A stretch of DNA of 53,913 bases from the NCBI GenBank assembly GCA_026394395.1, contig JAPKYK010000005.1, positions 129,500-183,412 on the forward strand, given 5' to 3'. Source of the stretch: Methanomassiliicoccales archaeon. GTDB taxonomy: Archaea; Thermoplasmatota; Thermoplasmata; Methanomassiliicoccales; UBA472. This document shows positions 3,630-26,546 of this stretch, one piece after another (the stretch's first letter is position 1; the number at the start of each line of letters is the position of its first letter). The notes under the pieces were generated by a model. The model searched no databases, was not told where the DNA came from, and saw only the letters and a program-made list of their open reading frames with translations. A program made the translations under genes and the position numbers.

Positions 3630-5252
3630 ATGCCTGAAGGTTCAGAGGTTTTCATTATATTGGACAAAGTCTCCAAGAGCTTCAACGGGAACCAGATTCT
3701 AAAGGACATTAGCACCACAGTGCATACTGGAGAGGTCCTGGGACTGATCGGAAGGAGCGGCAGCGGTAAATCCGTGCTCATCAACGCCATGCGCGGTACC
3801 CACGAATACAAGCCAGATTCCGGTCACATCATCTACCGTGTAAACCATTGCAAAGCCTGTGGGTGGGTGGACATGCCTTCCCCCGGTGCCAAATGCGTCA
3901 AGTGCGGCAAAGGTACGGAGATCAAGGAGATCGACTACTGGGCCCTCGACGAGAGGAACCCATTGCGAATGGCCATGCGCGGTCGCATCGCCATCATGAT
4001 GCAGAGGACCTTCGCTTTGTACGGAGACCTCACGGTCATCGAGAACGTGTTTGAGGCCATGAAGGAGAAGTCTGACGAGAAGAAGGTAGAACGGGCCATC
4101 CAATTGCTGGAAATGGTCAACATGACCCACCGCACCATGCACATCGCCCGCGACCTGTCCGGCGGGGAGAAACAGAGGACGGTACTGGCCAGACAGCTGG
4201 CCCGGGAACCCCTGTTGTTCCTGGCCGACGAGCCCACCGGAACCTTGGACCCGGAGACGGCGGACACTGTGCACAAGGCCCTCATAAAGGCCGTGGAGGA
4301 CTCGGGAATGTCCATGATAGTCACCTCCCACTGGCCAAAGGCCATCGCCCTCCTGTCCCACCGGGCCATATGGCTCGAGGACGGCATGATCAAGGCCGAG
4401 GGCGCTCCCGTCGATGTCACTAAGGCCTTTGACGTTGGGTTCGAGAAGGAAGCCGACATGAACGTCGAGGTCGGCCAGCCAGTGATCCGCGTCGATGGCG
4501 CCAAGAAATACTTCTACTCCATCGTCCGCGGGGTGGTCAAGGCCGTGGATGACGTGACCTTCGACGTGTATGACAAGGAGATATTCGGCCTCATCGGCCT
4601 GAGCGGGGCGGGGAAGACCACCTTATCGCGCATGATATCCGGGATCACCCCGGCCACGCACGGGGACGTGCTCGTGCGTGTCGGCGATGAGTGGGTCAAT
4701 ATGTCCGACCTCGGCGAGGAGGGCAGAGGCCGCGCAACACAGTATATTGGAATAATGCACCAGGAGAACGCCCTGTACCCCTTCAACACCGTGCTACAGA
4801 ACCTCACTGTCTGCCTGGGAATGAAGTTGCCACAGGAGCTGGCCAAGATGAAGGCCATACAGGTGCTGCGTGGCGTCGGCTTCACCGCCAAGGAGGTGGA
4901 GCGCATGCTCTACGCCTATCCCGAATCCCTGAGCGTCGGCGAGCGACAACGCATCGCCCTGGCCCGGACGATGATCATCGAACCCCGTTTCGTAGTTCTG
5001 GACGAACCGACAGGCACCATGGATCCCATCACTAGACAGGCGGTCGCTAAGTCGGTGATGCACGCCCGTAAGGAGCTCAATGAGACGTTCCTAATCGTCA
5101 GTCATGACATGGACTTCATCTTGGCCTGTTGCGACCGCGTCGCCCTCATGAAAGGCGGCAAGGTCGTGGCCATGGGCACGCCGACCGAAGTCCTGGCCGG
5201 CATGTCCCAGAAAGACCTGGACGGTGACGAGTCCAAGGTTTGTGAGGTCTGA
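3630..5252 (+). CDS. atwA: MCR activation component A2, twin ABC ATPase
   Basis: 540 residues with two ABC ATPase modules and no membrane segments. Module 1 has Walker A GRSGSGKS (about residue 50), the signature LSGGEKQ and Walker B LLFLADEP. Module 2 has Walker A GLSGAGKT, a degenerate signature LSVGERQ and Walker B FVVLDEP. Between Walker A and the signature of module 1 is a Cys-rich insertion with two CxxC pairs ([15 protein letters not shown]), characteristic of component A2. A2 supplies the ATP-dependent step in reductive activation of F430 in MCR. The ATG lies about 25-30 bp after a TATA box, suggesting a leaderless transcript. mcrC follows after 2 bp. Confidence 0.95.
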
Positions 5253-18788: not shown

Positions 18789-18817
18789 GTAGCATGCTCA
18801 AAGACCATTTTAATATA
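18789..18817 (+). promoter_or_regulatory. Shared operator-promoter, copy 1 (upstream of repeat peptide)
   Basis: GTAGCATGCTCAAA (18789-18802), containing the 8-bp palindrome AGCATGCT, is followed by a TATA box TTTTAATATA starting 17 bp after the palindrome's first base. The same 14-mer occurs at 21806-21819 at exactly the same distance from a TATA box. The geometry, operator just upstream of BRE/TATA, suits an activator. It lies between the HAD gene and the peptide gene. Confidence 0.75.
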
Positions 18818-18859
18818 CACAAGTCAAACGGGTGACTAAATAGCTAAAAGGTGCTCTCA

Positions 18860-19024
18860 ATGATGGTAAGAAACAAGGTCCTGATCGGGATGGTGGCTCT
18901 GTTTGCCGCCTCCGCCTGCTTGATGCTCGGAATGTCCATGATGTCCCTGACCGGTGGTTTGTCGATCCCGTTCCTGGACCCGCACTCGATCCCGTTCCTG
19001 GACCCCCACGCGATATCCTTCTGA
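18860..19024 (+). CDS. Repeat-containing membrane or exported peptide (SIPFLDPH x2)
   Basis: 54 codons, too short for routine calling. The product has a short basic N-terminus (MMVRNK), a hydrophobic Met-rich segment at about residues 7-30 that can be a signal peptide or membrane anchor, and a tail consisting of two perfect copies of the octapeptide SIPFLDPH (residues 35-50) and AISF. The DNA of the two copies differs at one base of 24. A GGTG-type ribosome-binding sequence precedes the ATG by about 8 bp and a TATA box lies about 45 bp upstream. It is convergent with the STAND regulator and shares an operator-like element with the DUF835 gene beyond it. No homology recognised. Confidence 0.7.
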   Translation: MMVRNKVLIGMVALFAASACLMLGMSMMSLTGGLSIPFLDPHSIPFLDPHAISF

Positions 19025-19031
19025 ACGAAAA

Positions 19032-19053
19032 TGTGCACATCCCTATGTGCACA
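19032..19053. terminator. Perfect 9-bp hairpin between convergent peptide and STAND genes
   Basis: TGTGCACAT, a CCCT loop and ATGTGCACA form a perfect stem. It starts 7 bp after the peptide's stop and includes the stop codon of the minus-strand STAND gene, so it may act as a terminator or mRNA-stabilising end in both directions. No long T run follows on the plus strand. Confidence 0.6.
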
Positions 19054-21760
19054 GCCTTTCCATATTTTCCTTGACCTGTTGCAGCAGTTTCTGATGGCCT
19101 AGCCGGTTGGCGATGTCGTAGGCTTCCTGTAATAACGCCTGGGCCTCGTCCCTCTCGTTGTTCATCAAGCTCACATCAGCGATCTCGATCAACAGCTGGC
19201 CCAGTCTGACCGGGGAGTCATGCTCCTTCAAAATCCCTATGGAGGTATGAAACTCCTCCTTGGCCTCGCTCCGTTCACCCCTCTTGGAACGGATGAACCC
19301 CTTGTAGAAATGCAGCAGTGATTCCATCAGCGGGTCGTCCAGCTTGACCGATATGGGGAGGGAGGCGTTGACCAGGTCATCCGCCCTCTCGAGGTCTCCT
19401 TCGATGATCTTGCACCCGGTCATGTTGGCCATGGCGTGCCCCATCGTACTAAGGTCCCCCACGGCGTTGGCCAGGTCCCGCGAGCGCTCCAGGAATCCGA
19501 CCCCCTCGGCGTTATTGCCTATGGTGCATAGGTCGTTCCCGATGCTTATGCAGGCCTTGGCCATCATGTTGGTGTCGCCTCTCCGTTCCAGAATGACCAA
19601 GGCCTCTCTCTTGTAGCGGATAGCCAGATCGTAATCCTTGAGTGTGGAGTAGGTGCGGCCCAATCCGTAGAGCGCTTTACCTAGGGCAAGGTCATCAGCC
19701 AGCTCCAGGGCTATGGACCGGGCCCTCTCGAAATGTTCCAGGGCCTCCGCGCTCTGCCCCCGCCGCTCCATGAGGCCGCCGATGTCGTACAGGATGTCCG
19801 CCTGGGTCGACAGGTCACCGGTGCTCAGGGAGATGTCCATACCGTACTGTAGGAATCGCATCGCTTCGTCGTAATCGGCGCGGTTGAGGTGGATGACCCC
19901 GATCATGCGGTTCACCTCGCTCAGCACCCGTCCGTCCCTCTCCGCCGGCAACGCCCGGCGCAGCGACTCCAGGACGCCGAAGGCCCGGTCCCATTCCCCC
20001 TGCAGGAAAAGCACTTCGCCCTGCAGCAGGTTGATCTCCACCAGTTCGCTCTTCGCCGTGCCCCCCATGTCCCGCACCAGGCGGTCCAGCAGCGGCGCGA
20101 ACTGCGTGGCGTAGCCCTTGTTAATTATGGTCCGTCCGTCCCCAGCGGCGATGGACACCGCCGTCGGAAGGTCCCCGGCCATGATGGAATGGTAAAGCCC
20201 CTCCACCCTGGCCGGGGCGGACTTGTCCTGCAGGTAGTAGGCGGCCGCCGCACGGTGATAGACCCGCCGCTGCCTGGGGGTGAGCCTGGACAGGGAGAAC
20301 TCCCTCAGCAGGTCGTGCATGCCTATCATGCGCCCCACCGACTCGTAGATGATGGACTTGGCCAGCAGGGAGTCGACCGCCTCGTAGCTTACGGCGTAGT
20401 CCCCGCTGTCGAGCTCCACCTTCTCTATTCCCGCGGCGGTGTGGATCTCCTCCTCCATCAGGAAGAAAGCGTCGATGAGCACAGGGTAGCGGAACACCGC
20501 GGCGATGCTCATTATCTTGCGCTCGGCCACTCCCAGGCGGGAGAAGACCTCCTGCTCGATGAATATGCGGATGTTCTTACCCAAGGCAAGCTTGGGGTCG
20601 TCGATGAGCTCGAGGAACAGGGGATGACCGCTGGTTACCCGGAATATCTCCTCGAAGTTGCCGTCCAGCAGACCGCGGGCCTTCATCATCTGATTGCTGC
20701 TCTCCCGGTCCAGCCCTTCCAGGTTGATCTCCTCCACTAGGCCACGGAAGACCGTCCCGCGGGGATAGAACGAGGGCAGCTCCCGGGCGGTGCACACCAC
20801 CCGCACCCTCTCCAGGCCCTCCAGTACGCTCAGCAAGGCCTGCAGGAGCTCCAGGACCGAGGGGTCGGCCTTGTGCACGTCGTCGAAGATGAGCAAGGCC
20901 GAGACGTCCTTAAGGTCCGCATCGAGGATGTGCGAGACCTCCCCCACCGCCGGCGTCTCCGTCTGATTGAGGTACCATTCGAGGTTCCTCCGCCCCATCT
21001 GTGACAGGAATTCCGCCAAGGGCCGCAGCATGGCCTTCATGTTGGCCCACTCGTGCACCTTGTACCAGAAGACGTTGGTGCTATCCCGCACGTTCTGGGC
21101 GAACTTGGCCAGGAGGGTGGTCTTGCCGATTCCGGGGATGCCGTTTATGACCACCATGCGCTTGCTCTCCGAGGTGAGGAGGTCGGACAGCGTCCGTAGC
21201 TCCTTTTCCCGGCCGTAGAAGCTCCTGACCGCCGGCTTCTTGTCAGTGAAGTCGACATAGCGCCGCTCCTCCCGCATCTTGTTCTCATGGAAGCTGCGAC
21301 AATCGATGCAACCGTGCGCGATGCCGTTGACCAGCTCTAGCAGGTCATAGCGCTTGGGAAGGTAGTTGCCCAGGCGGCCTATCTCGTCCTGGTGCCGGTT
21401 CCCCTGCAGGTCGATCACCTCCACCTTAGTGGCCTCCAGCCCTACCTTGATGCGCTTGGCCTCTTCCTGACCGGCCGGGCTCAGGAAATACACCTTCCGC
21501 ACGCTAGGCAGCCCTTTGACGTGGCGGGTGTAGGTCTCCACCGAACCTTCCCTGCCCATCTCCGCCAGCACCTTGGCCACGTTGTTGCGGCCCACATTCA
21601 CGGCGGCGGAGACACCGTCCTGGGTGACGGTCTTGGGGGAGTCCGGGTCCATCATGAAGCGCTGTTGGAAAAGCAGATGGAGGAAAACCCTCTCCTTCGC
21701 CGTTAATAACGATCTGCCAACAGCGTGGTTCACAGAGCAAAATCGTTCTCCCTCTATCAA
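19043..21760 (-). CDS. Winged-helix/STAND (NB-ARC-like) ATPase/TPR signal-transduction regulator
   Basis: 905 residues. An N-terminal winged helix (about 15-95) is followed by a linker with CxxC (HGCIDCRS) and a STAND NTPase at about 180-440: FYGREKELRTL, Walker A GIPGIGKTT, Walker B ALLIFDDV and a sensor VVCTARE. A winged-helix segment follows, then eight or more TPR-like repeats at about 560-900 (YDEAMRFLQYGMDISL, EALEHFERARSIA and others). Such proteins hold a DNA-binding domain inactive until a ligand binds the TPR sensor. The start is TTG at 21760 (GTG at 21733 possible). Both flanking transcription units carry the same palindromic element, suggesting they are its targets; this is inference. 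Confidence 0.9.
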   Translation of the reverse strand: MIEGERFCSVNHAVGRSLLTAKERVFLHLLFQQRFMMDPDSPKTVTQDGVSAAVNVGRNNVAKVLAEMGREGSVETYTRHVKGLPSVRKVYFLSPAGQEEAKRIKVGLEATKVEVIDLQGNRHQDEIGRLGNYLPKRYDLLELVNGIAHGCIDCRSFHENKMREERRYVDFTDKKPAVRSFYGREKELRTLSDLLTSESKRMVVINGIPGIGKTTLLAKFAQNVRDSTNVFWYKVHEWANMKAMLRPLAEFLSQMGRRNLEWYLNQTETPAVGEVSHILDADLKDVSALLIFDDVHKADPSVLELLQALLSVLEGLERVRVVCTARELPSFYPRGTVFRGLVEEINLEGLDRESSNQMMKARGLLDGNFEEIFRVTSGHPLFLELIDDPKLALGKNIRIFIEQEVFSRLGVAERKIMSIAAVFRYPVLIDAFFLMEEEIHTAAGIEKVELDSGDYAVSYEAVDSLLAKSIIYESVGRMIGMHDLLREFSLSRLTPRQRRVYHRAAAAYYLQDKSAPARVEGLYHSIMAGDLPTAVSIAAGDGRTIINKGYATQFAPLLDRLVRDMGGTAKSELVEINLLQGEVLFLQGEWDRAFGVLESLRRALPAERDGRVLSEVNRMIGVIHLNRADYDEAMRFLQYGMDISLSTGDLSTQADILYDIGGLMERRGQSAEALEHFERARSIALELADDLALGKALYGLGRTYSTLKDYDLAIRYKREALVILERRGDTNMMAKACISIGNDLCTIGNNAEGVGFLERSRDLANAVGDLSTMGHAMANMTGCKIIEGDLERADDLVNASLPISVKLDDPLMESLLHFYKGFIRSKRGERSEAKEEFHTSIGILKEHDSPVRLGQLLIEIADVSLMNNERDEAQALLQEAYDIANRLGHQKLLQQVKENMERLCT

Positions 21761-21805
21761 TAACCTTTCCCACGGCCCTCAGTGGCTGATTCTCATGCCA
21801 GGAAA

Positions 21806-21833
21806 GTAGCATGCTCAAATCCCCTTTAAATAT
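21806..21833 (+). promoter_or_regulatory. Shared operator-promoter, copy 2 (between STAND gene and DUF835 gene)
   Basis: GTAGCATGCTCAAA (21806-21819) is identical to 18789-18802, and TATA (TTTAAATAT, 21825-21833) again begins 17 bp after the palindrome's first base. The predicted start of transcription near 21858 fits a protein start at 21877, not at the ATG inside the palindrome. Read on the minus strand, the TATA-like sequence lies upstream of the palindrome, so a protein bound here could activate the DUF835 gene and repress the STAND gene. Confidence 0.75.
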
Positions 21834-21876
21834 GGTCAAAACGAAGATTAGGGGCAAGGTTCGGAGGAACAAATTT

Positions 21877-22437
21877 ATGGAAGAAGCCACAGGCGCCAAG
21901 GTCTCGCTGTTGGTTGAAGGATACCCTCGTAACGGTTTCCAGATCTACTCGAGGTACCTCTCTGGAGAGGAGGGTGTATGCATAACCCGCCTGCATCCCG
22001 AATACGTGGTCGAGAAGTATGGACTGAAGAACACCAAGTTCCATTGGCTGAGCGGAGTGAAGCAGAAGGGGACGCTCAACCCCGAGAGCATGGGCAACCT
22101 GGTCAAGCAGGTGAGGTCCGAGGTCAGGGGGGGCCAGAAGAGGTTCTTCCTGGATGGGCTGGAATACCTCCTGTTATGGAACGACATGAACAAGATTGTC
22201 TCGTCCCTGAAGGAGATCAGCCAGATGCTCGACGACGTCCAAGGCTCAATGATCGTGTCCATCGACCCTCTGACCTTCGAGGAACGGGACCTGAAGAGAC
22301 TTTGGGACTCCTTCCCCCAGTTCGACCCGTCCGCGCTCAGTGAAGGATTTCCGCAAAGCGCCGCAGACGAGCCAGCTGGCAAGGGTCGAATAGGCGAGGG
22401 TCTATTGGTATCAAAAGGATTGACCGCGACGCCATGA
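21877..22437 (+). CDS. DUF835 domain protein, copy A
   Basis: 186 residues. The DUF835 core runs from VSLLVEGYPRNGFQIY through CITRLHPEYV and the strand FFLDGLEYLLLWND to SMIVSIDPLTF. The fold resembles a RecA/KaiC-type core without a Walker A motif, and the domain is used in archaeal signalling; the ligand is unknown. The ATG at 21877 has a GGAGG ten bases upstream and lies about 45 bp after the TATA box. The last 34 residues are low in homology and are encoded in a region that overlaps copy B on the other strand by 101 bp. Confidence 0.85.
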   Translation: MEEATGAKVSLLVEGYPRNGFQIYSRYLSGEEGVCITRLHPEYVVEKYGLKNTKFHWLSGVKQKGTLNPESMGNLVKQVRSEVRGGQKRFFLDGLEYLLLWNDMNKIVSSLKEISQMLDDVQGSMIVSIDPLTFEERDLKRLWDSFPQFDPSALSEGFPQSAADEPAGKGRIGEGLLVSKGLTATP

Positions 22438-22876
22438 CCACGTCGTTCAGCTCCTCCAGGAAGATGTTGAGCGAACGGAAGTCGGTAAAGAGCGAGATGT
22501 ACTCTAAACCGTCAAGGACCGCAGCGGCGTTCTTCCGCTGGCTCACGAACTCGGCGATCTCTCTTACAATTCTATCCAGGTGTTCCGGTGAGATTCGCCG
22601 GCTGATCCCGGTCTGGCTCAACCAGACGGCGTGAATTTCCTGCAATGGATATCTTTCCCGGAGCAGGTCCGGGTGCATGCGGGAGACGCAGATGATGTCC
22701 TTGCCCGCCGTGGCCATCGAGTTGATCAGGGACAGGGTCTTGTCCAGGCGTTCGTTCATCACCAGGTAAATGCGCCCATGGTCCAGGGTGAACAGACCAT
22801 AGTCTGAATGGACGTCGATAGAGAAGAACTTCTCTCCACTGGTTGTGTCCAGGTCCGCGTTCACGACCTTCTCCAT
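22337..22876 (-). CDS. DUF835 domain protein, copy B
   Basis: 179 residues, same family as copies A and C: GRIYLVMNERLDKTLSLI, DIICVSRMHPDLLRERYP, AAAVLDGLEYISLFTDF, then ILLIPIDPRLFDP. The first 30 residues form an extra beta-rich segment. It is convergent with copy A and the two reading frames overlap by 101 bp. Expected to be a cytoplasmic signalling protein; partner unknown. It ends close after the conserved IDPRLF strand, as the family usually does, so copy A rather than copy B is the one with an extended tail. Confidence 0.85.
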   Translation of the reverse strand: MEKVVNADLDTTSGEKFFSIDVHSDYGLFTLDHGRIYLVMNERLDKTLSLINSMATAGKDIICVSRMHPDLLRERYPLQEIHAVWLSQTGISRRISPEHLDRIVREIAEFVSQRKNAAAVLDGLEYISLFTDFRSLNIFLEELNDVVMASRSILLIPIDPRLFDPCQLARLRRFAEILH

Positions 22877-25685: not shown

Positions 25686-26147
25686 TCAAGTGCATACAAC
25701 TTCGTCGGATATGCGCTCCAGAGCGCCAACGTTACTGGGGGAGTACTCGTTGGGGTCCAGACTGATGAAGAACTCCGCCCCGCCCATACTGCCTCTGGCC
25801 CGCTTTAACGAATCGATCACCGGCCGGATGCCGTTCCACATGTACAAGACGTCCAGACCGTTGAGCACCACTATGGAGTCCTCGTTCTCGTTAAGGAACT
25901 CGACTATACTCTCCTCGAACCTCTGCAGGTTCATCGGTGGGATGCAGTCCCCCTCTGGTCGCGGCATCAGCCACTTGGCGGTCATGTTCTCCTTGACCTG
26001 CTCGAACTGCATCTCCAGCTGCCTCGGGGAATGCTTTGAGATGTACAGTGCCTTCCTTCCTTTCTTCAGCTCCCGGCGCAGCATCTCGTGAGTGCGAAGG
26101 GGTACACGTTCCTTGATCATTACCAGCTTTCCTTCCTTGCCCGTCAT
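25686..26147 (-). CDS. DUF835 domain protein, copy C
   Basis: 153 residues. It aligns with copies A and B: GKLVMIKERVPLRTHEML, ALYISKHSPRQLEMQF, SIVVLNGLDVLYMWNGI, then EFFISLDPNEYSPSNV. The ATG at 26147 is chosen because upstream codons run into the RNase P RNA gene and do not look like protein. It lies about 95 bp downstream of rnpB on the same strand and might be cotranscribed, or have its own promoter in that gap. Function unknown; probably a signalling module. Confidence 0.85.
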   Translation of the reverse strand: MTGKEGKLVMIKERVPLRTHEMLRRELKKGRKALYISKHSPRQLEMQFEQVKENMTAKWLMPRPEGDCIPPMNLQRFEESIVEFLNENEDSIVVLNGLDVLYMWNGIRPVIDSLKRARGSMGGAEFFISLDPNEYSPSNVGALERISDEVVCT

Positions 26148-26242
26148 CTTTTCCACGACGAAATATCGTTCGACGAGTAGGTGTACCTGCGCTGACCGCC
26201 TAGCGAAAAAAGAAGAGAACGGCCGCTGGAATAACGGGCCAG

Positions 26243-26546
26243 GGGTCGGGTGAGGGTAGTAGGCCCCCTTCTGTTTCAGGCGACATTCAACTGCGCGCCC
26301 TACCCGCCGGTCCTGAGCGGTCATCCCGGCTGTTTGGGCTTGCTCCGGTGGGGGGTCGCCGTTTCACCATATCCTCGGGGAACGTCCTCGCCAGGCGATT
26401 CATGCTACCCCGAGACTGTGTCGTTTCTGTGCCCTTGCCTTGGCTCTCGCCAAACCACTTTCGCGGTCCACCTTTCTCATGGAGGAGAGACCTTCCTCAG
26501 CTGGGCCCGAAGGCCCTACCGTCGGTCGCCCTCCCTCTCCCGACGC
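26243..26546 (-). ncRNA. rnpB: RNase P RNA (archaeal)
   Basis: On the minus strand the conserved cores of RNase P RNA appear in order: GAGGAAGGTC (CR-I), TGAGAAAGG, a GGCACAGAAACGACACAG region, GGTGAAACGGCG, CCGGAGCAAGCCCAAACAG, and near the 3' end ACAGAAGGGGGCCTACTA (CR-V). GTCGGG at the 5' end pairs with CCCGAC at the 3' end as P1. A TATA box (plus-strand 26565-26574, TTTAAATAG on the minus strand) lies about 25 bp upstream. The RNA is the catalytic part of RNase P, which removes 5' leaders from pre-tRNAs. The ends are set by P1 and may be off by a few bases. Confidence 0.9.

Follow-up and report, generated by a model that had tools for sequence, protein, structure and literature searches.

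Organization of the locus

We analyzed a window of 53,913 nucleotides (JAPKYK010000005.1, positions 129,500 to 183,412, forward strand) from the 1.64-Mb, 99.85% complete genome of a Methanomassiliicoccales archaeon. A small repeat-peptide gene lies there convergent to the 3' end of a STAND/TPR regulator gene, and a DUF835 gene diverges from the regulator's other end (Table 1). The original prediction of a 54-residue peptide with two SIPFLDPH repeats was confirmed as an open reading frame (18860-19024, plus strand) preceded by an AGGTG Shine-Dalgarno site. Its translation, as read from the window, is MMVRNKVLIGMVALFAASACLMLGMSMMSLTGGLSIPFLDPHSIPFLDPHAISF: a basic N-terminus followed by a hydrophobic leader, the two octapeptides and a short tail, AISF. 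The regulator had been described as 905 residues long; its frame (19043-21760, minus strand) is intact, but that length is counted from TTG 21760, and since homologues align only from residue 10 of this frame, the true start is probably GTG 21733, giving 896 aa. The DUF835 gene probably starts at ATG 21877. Two more DUF835 genes are found near the locus, at 22337-22876 (minus strand), overlapping the 3' end of the operator-controlled DUF835 gene, and at 25686-26324 (minus strand).

Table 1 Features of the repeat-peptide/STAND/DUF835 locus and of the associated RNA element.
Feature	Position	Strand	Remarks
Operator 1, GTAGCATGCTCAAA; palindromic core AGCATGCT at 18791-18798	18789..18802	+	Exact copy of operator 2; relatives that have the peptide gene keep it upstream
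TATA-like box TTTTAATA, peptide promoter	18808..18815	+	Read from sequence
Shine-Dalgarno AGGTG of peptide gene	18849..18853	+	Read from sequence; similar purine-rich or AGGTG site in relatives
Repeat-peptide gene, 54 aa	18860..19024	+	Orthologues in 32/32 STAND-positive genomes
Octapeptide copy 1, SIPFLDPH	18962..18985	+	
Octapeptide copy 2, SIPFLDPH	18986..19009	+	One synonymous core codon apart from copy 1
STAND/TPR regulator	19043..21733	-	Pfam, orthologues, AlphaFold2 model, Foldseek; N-terminal winged helix, STAND NTPase (GIPGIGKTT, MHD), arm, C-terminal TPR superhelix
Operator 2, GTAGCATGCTCAAA, between STAND and DUF835, TATA box towards DUF835	21806..21819	+	
TATA-like box TTTAAATA, DUF835 promoter	21825..21832	+	Read from sequence; kept in relatives
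DUF835 protein, third member of the conserved unit	21877..22437	+	PF05763, E=5e-20 on longer ORF
Probable small RNA, conserved core GGRGAAGGTCCRCGGGG, hairpin and T run	G000:C1:36954-37090 (L081:3955-4090), outside window	+	

A shared operator at two promoters

As predicted, both promoters flanking the regulator carry the same 14-bp sequence without a single difference, one copy driving the repeat-peptide gene and the other the DUF835 gene. The 17-bp spacing to the TATA-like boxes was also correct as a figure, although it runs from the start of the AGCATGCT palindrome and not from its end. Nor is the 14-mer a common genomic sequence: in the whole 1.64-Mb genome, GTAGCATGCTCAAA occurs just twice at 0-1 mismatch, both times exactly, and the next best sites have two mismatches. 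The 8-bp palindrome alone was not significantly enriched within the window, and the significance of the operator therefore comes from genome-wide and comparative tests rather than from a window count of the 8-mer. In about 32 related Methanomassiliicoccales genomes, the operator recurs at the same two promoters and at a fixed distance from TATA, the spacing being constant over 68 sites. The proposed search of relatives for operator plus TATA (AGCATGCTCA-N9-TWWATA, one mismatch allowed) yielded ~100 matches in 61 genomes, mostly at peptide and DUF835 promoters; the reversed pattern, used as a control, gave 3. Regulation through this operator is thus well supported.

Further matches lie elsewhere. 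In one lineage (G025:C14), operator and TATA precede an archaellin gene (PF01917; L064:313-1038), which suggests motility as an operator output there, and an exact operator-plus-TATA match stands before a response-regulator/PAS gene in another genome (G013:C27; L074:4088).

Conservation and joint loss of the unit

Of 61 genomes from the order, 32 have an orthologue of the STAND protein with 44-77% identity and the same layout, and the named records among them are Methanomassiliicoccales. Every one of these 32 also has a repeat-peptide gene, convergent with STAND at its 3' end and in some cases on a separate contig, and the divergent gene encodes a DUF835 protein in 29 of the 29 loci examined. 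Peptide, STAND and DUF835 genes with their two operators are, as anticipated, one conserved unit across the STAND-positive genomes, embedded in the gene order TrpB-like, DUF835b, DUF835a, STAND, peptide, HAD, RidA, TRASH-type regulator, CopA; the locus is old chromosomal synteny. Beyond the 32, two genomes (G007, G024) have a repeat-peptide gene at contig ends, where the repeat probably broke the assembly. In G029, the STAND 3' end and the peptide gene are ~1.3 kb apart (L028).

Eight genomes (G012, G014, G016, G017, G026, G035, G038 and G053) keep both the TrpB-like gene and the CopA side but lack the peptide, STAND and DUF835a genes together. The same eight are also without an unlinked RNA and its operator (see below), apart from a degenerate relic in G012. 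The strongest evidence for a single functional circuit made up of these parts is their recurrent loss as a group.

Distant STAND relatives elsewhere in Thermoplasmatota (25-34% identity, L133-L140) had neither the operator nor an octapeptide gene, and no STAND relative was found in viral contigs. Two of these distant relatives (L133, L136) have a DUF835-like neighbor, as judged by eye. Another, a Thermoplasmata relative with 25% identity, has beside it a 195-aa ORF, convergent and made up of nonapeptide repeats (INQGICQST; L140:7201-7788, minus strand), which may be chance or a remote parallel.

The repeat-peptide family

Family members have a hydrophobic leader followed by 1-12 units of the form x-I-P-x-x-[D/E]-P-H, or in its fuller form x-I-P-[G/F/L/V/M]-x-[D/E/S]-P-H. 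The leader starts with a basic N-terminus and continues as a strongly hydrophobic stretch (median best 19-residue hydropathy 2.6), a strong leader or transmembrane segment being present in nearly every member. Octapeptide copies are nearly always identical inside one genome and differ between genera, where changes fall at positions 1, 4, 5 and 6. Some genera have their copies head to tail (e.g., IIPGIDPH twelve times in G029), while others have identical copies (YIPVNDPH, GIPGNDPH, VIPGNSPH) separated by unrelated spacers of 7-18 aa; a single copy is found in G003, and many of the ORFs stop directly after PH. His occupies position 8 in 31 of 32 first copies.

The predicted conservation of the octapeptide tail beside STAND homologues is borne out by the peptide gene in 32/32 STAND-positive genomes and by codon usage: between copies within genes, we counted 834 synonymous versus 4 non-synonymous codon differences (pairwise counts, hence not independent, from copies found with a regular expression that omits badly broken ones such as AIPGDDPH in G025 and GIPAADPL in G037). 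This synonymous bias is far beyond neutral, indicating translation of the octapeptide, on which selection acts as a unit.

Divergent members also exist. G011 has a nonapeptide repeat, PLPGVGPVM, which contains no His and has no clear leader in frame with it; the operator is nevertheless present (L011, 4652, minus strand). The repeat of G021 is IPGIDPI, again without His. In the single-contig genome G015 (L012, ~4300-4600), three octarepeat copies are followed by a run of IIPGTDPH in a different frame, which may reflect sequencing error, decay or phase variation. Peptide matches away from the locus (L049-L051, L053-L059) were rejected as antisense or chance.

Domains, fold and co-variation of the regulator

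The regulator is a member of the STAND family: GIPGIGKT, DD and MHD are nearly invariant in 31 orthologues, Pfam matches comprise AAA_16, ATPase_2, NB-ARC and TPR, and the family's succession of NTPase, WHD, arm and repeat sensor is present. An AlphaFold2 model (pLDDT 82.6) has a winged helix, the NTPase, WHD/arm and a long TPR superhelix. Like other STAND proteins, it would be expected to undergo a ligand-driven ADP/ATP switch and to oligomerize. By both sequence and Foldseek, its best PDB match is PH0952 (6mfv), an archaeal STAND protein with a TPR sensor. Foldseek matches of the TPR model include Rap receptors crystallized with their pheromones (4gyo, 4i9c, 8rst; TM 0.66-0.70 by target length) and also LGN-peptide complexes; likeness to Rap and LGN is generic for this type of TPR. 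Other winged-helix proteins of ~430 aa, related to the STAND N-terminus, exist in the genomes.

Octapeptide and TPR distances are correlated once the distance of the winged-helix and NTPase part is removed (partial r 0.39); no such correlation of the octapeptide is seen with the equally fast-evolving DUF835 protein (partial r 0.04). Against motifs simulated along the tree, this co-variation reaches p 0.035-0.06, and by column it delineates no clear pocket, few columns carrying the signal; we take it as a borderline hint only. The oligopeptide-binding protein family PF00496 (SBP_bac_5) is present in the source genome and in 9 other searched genomes.

A third operator and a probable small RNA

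Many genomes have a third operator site, upstream of an operon for an NMP kinase (AAA_18) and a CDP-alcohol phosphatidyltransferase. This copy is weaker than the other two, and in the source genome its TATA spacer is degenerate. Between it and the kinase operon lie a conserved core, G[GA]GAAGGTCCRCGGGG, a stable hairpin and a T run. The hairpin varies in sequence while its pairing persists (median z -3.0 for 24 sequences folded one by one, one of them a mis-extracted stretch). A covariance model built from a MAFFT alignment (R1) was discarded: hairpins of such unlike sequence do not align, and it retained only 3 base pairs. No Rfam family matches the element. These features suggest a small RNA of roughly 100 nt, which the original prediction had not picked up; alternatively, the element may be a leader or attenuator of the kinase operon. 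A search for its targets in the source genome by complementarity to the core returned several scattered sites.

Of the 31 locus-positive genomes checked, 29 contain the RNA (it is missing from the AK6 locus of G013 and G021), while RNA and operator were absent from the 12 STAND-less genomes examined. In the STAND-less genome G012 (L167, L148), an apparent relic stands ahead of the NMP kinase, consisting of a degenerate operator, GAGTATGCTC, and an RNA core. The RNA is also present, with no STAND gene detected, in three incomplete assemblies (G019, G024, G059). The co-occurrence of RNA and STAND (29/31 versus 0/12) gives a Fisher p of 6e-9, or 9e-7 when these three are counted against it, in both cases ignoring shared ancestry.

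A candidate peptide-signaling circuit and its alternatives

The reading that we favor is one of signaling. The winged helix of the STAND protein would bind AGCATGCT, which lies immediately before the TATA box, and, with its TPR sensor occupied, the protein, which we infer to be an activator, would switch on three promoters: those of the repeat-peptide gene, the DUF835 gene and the small RNA upstream of the NMP-kinase/CDP-alcohol phosphatidyltransferase operon. The peptide precursor would be exported by its hydrophobic leader and its C-terminal repeats cut into octapeptides of the form x-I-P-x-x-D-P-H, which could re-enter through an oligopeptide permease, the corresponding binding-protein family being present. 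An octapeptide lodged in the TPR groove would close a positive feedback loop and report cell density or kin. The steps are not equally secure. That the STAND protein binds the operator is likely, whereas we see the case as evenly poised for a processed octapeptide signal that the TPR part would bind, and likewise consider an autoinducing, self-regulating peptide circuit of Methanomassiliicoccales plausible without leaning either way. Slightly more tentative is the broader proposal of a multi-copy, gene-encoded oligopeptide pheromone system, the first in archaea, with a precursor of 1-12 octapeptides, a STAND reader acting through its TPR part, and a common operator on the precursor gene, the DUF835 gene and the small RNA.

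Several observations weigh against such a circuit. Many precursors are head to tail without spacers, so that a protease cutting after PH would be needed, and no predicted protease or transporter gene lies under the operator; the TPR co-variation is borderline and not carried by many columns, and the Rap/LGN likeness is generic; MalT, the nearest well-studied TPR-type STAND activator, senses a sugar; and G013 and G021 have the module without the RNA at the AK6 locus. The strongest competitor, which the original prediction also raised and which we still consider somewhat unlikely, is an envelope effector: a membrane-anchored small protein with its repeats outside, serving adhesion, envelope protection or antagonism of neighbors, and turned on together with DUF835 and the RNA by a STAND protein that senses some other signal. 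The strong leader or transmembrane segment of nearly every member agrees with this, as do a copy number that drifts from 1 to 12, like that of surface repeat proteins, and a third operator adjoining an operon for lipid head-group transfer by the CDP-alcohol phosphatidyltransferase. However, copies that are alike within and unlike between genera, even across unrelated spacers, suit a short recognized ligand better than a structural repeat, one copy is enough in G003, and the borderline tracking of the TPR domain likewise speaks for a ligand.

A signaling role also has to be separated from internal feedback, in which the peptide would not pass between cells but would regulate the STAND protein in cis, inhibiting or tethering it inside the cell that makes it or at that cell's membrane. 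Adjacent genes, a shared operator and a conserved octapeptide would be equally expected then, but the positive charge at the N-terminus of the leader predicts repeats facing outside, and we hold this to be improbable. Scarcely more credit is due to the idea that an unlinked factor reads the operator and the STAND protein is a passenger of the locus. DNA binding by its winged helix is a prediction, and the related ~430-aa winged-helix proteins offer other candidates; yet STAND shares its gains or losses with the operators and the distant RNA (the 29/31 versus 0/12 contrast above, uncorrected for ancestry), and one operator sits in the STAND-DUF835 intergenic region itself. Least probable of all is a metal-binding octarepeat, in which Asp and His of each repeat would buffer copper or another metal outside the membrane under a STAND metal-stress regulator. 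The near-constant His at position 8 would fit, as would a copper-type P-ATPase with HMA domains and a YHS protein nearby, joined in relatives by a TRASH-domain regulator. It is disfavored because members without His or Asp exist (IPGIDPI in G021 lacks His, PLPGVGPV in G011 lacks both), so that a ligand is not present in every repeat, and because the copper genes stay when the module is lost: the CopA-HAD-RidA-TrpB2 synteny persists, and proximity thus looks like ancient gene order. In addition, the CopA-side genes are without the operator, and variable positions 4-5 follow no metal logic.

Relation to known systems

The favored signaling circuit resembles the RRNPP/RRNPPA systems (Rap-Phr, NprR-NprX, PlcR-PapR and the AimR-AimP arbitrium) in placing a TPR sensor of peptide-receptor fold beside a small exported precursor gene, here in 32/32 genomes, in the shortness of its peptides (5-10 aa in theirs) and in its DNA-binding regulator, which most of them have. 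As in arbitrium, a target lies beside the receptor, the arbitrium target being aimX, which acts as an RNA. RRNPPA systems have been reported from Bacillota and from the elements and phages of these bacteria (PMC12700828). In such systems the HTH, or the helical domain of Rap, is joined directly to the TPR, while here an archaeal winged helix is followed by a STAND NTPase and arm, the precursor gene is convergent, and it encodes 1-12 identical octapeptide copies. Because the STAND NTPase separates the DNA-binding and TPR parts, the protein is not a member of RRNPP/RRNPPA, although it may work like one. Fungal alpha-factor-type precursors are likewise exported, contain several identical peptide copies, sometimes with unrelated spacers, and vary between species; unlike them, the precursors here have no known processing sites and no GPCR, and we claim no homology.

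MalT, Pyrococcus horikoshii PH0952 and AfsR are not known to us to be linked to a repeat-peptide gene, a shared operator and a small RNA; in the present case, by contrast, a candidate peptide ligand is encoded beside the sensor. The NTPase-WHD-arm-TPR layout itself is common to all of them (PMC6468293), and the literature consulted on PH0952 yielded no inducer. Within the literature covered, which is partial, we also found no archaeal counterpart and no gene-encoded archaeal peptide signal. Cell-cell signaling in archaea is poorly known (PMC12240190). Quorum sensing in Haloferax volcanii (DFS signal, DdfA, CirA) is likewise archaeal cell-cell communication, but its signal is a protease-resistant small molecule (PMC12240190) and not a gene-encoded peptide like the candidate here.

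A peptide/STAND/operator circuit thus appears to be undescribed in archaea, possibly one with a cell-to-cell role. Peptide signaling is well known in Gram-positive bacteria and fungi, and TPR-type STAND regulators are widespread in archaea. With a candidate STAND ligand encoded next door, in species-specific sequences and with a defined operator and a small RNA output, this locus makes two questions testable: whether archaea use peptide pheromones, and what archaeal STAND regulators sense.
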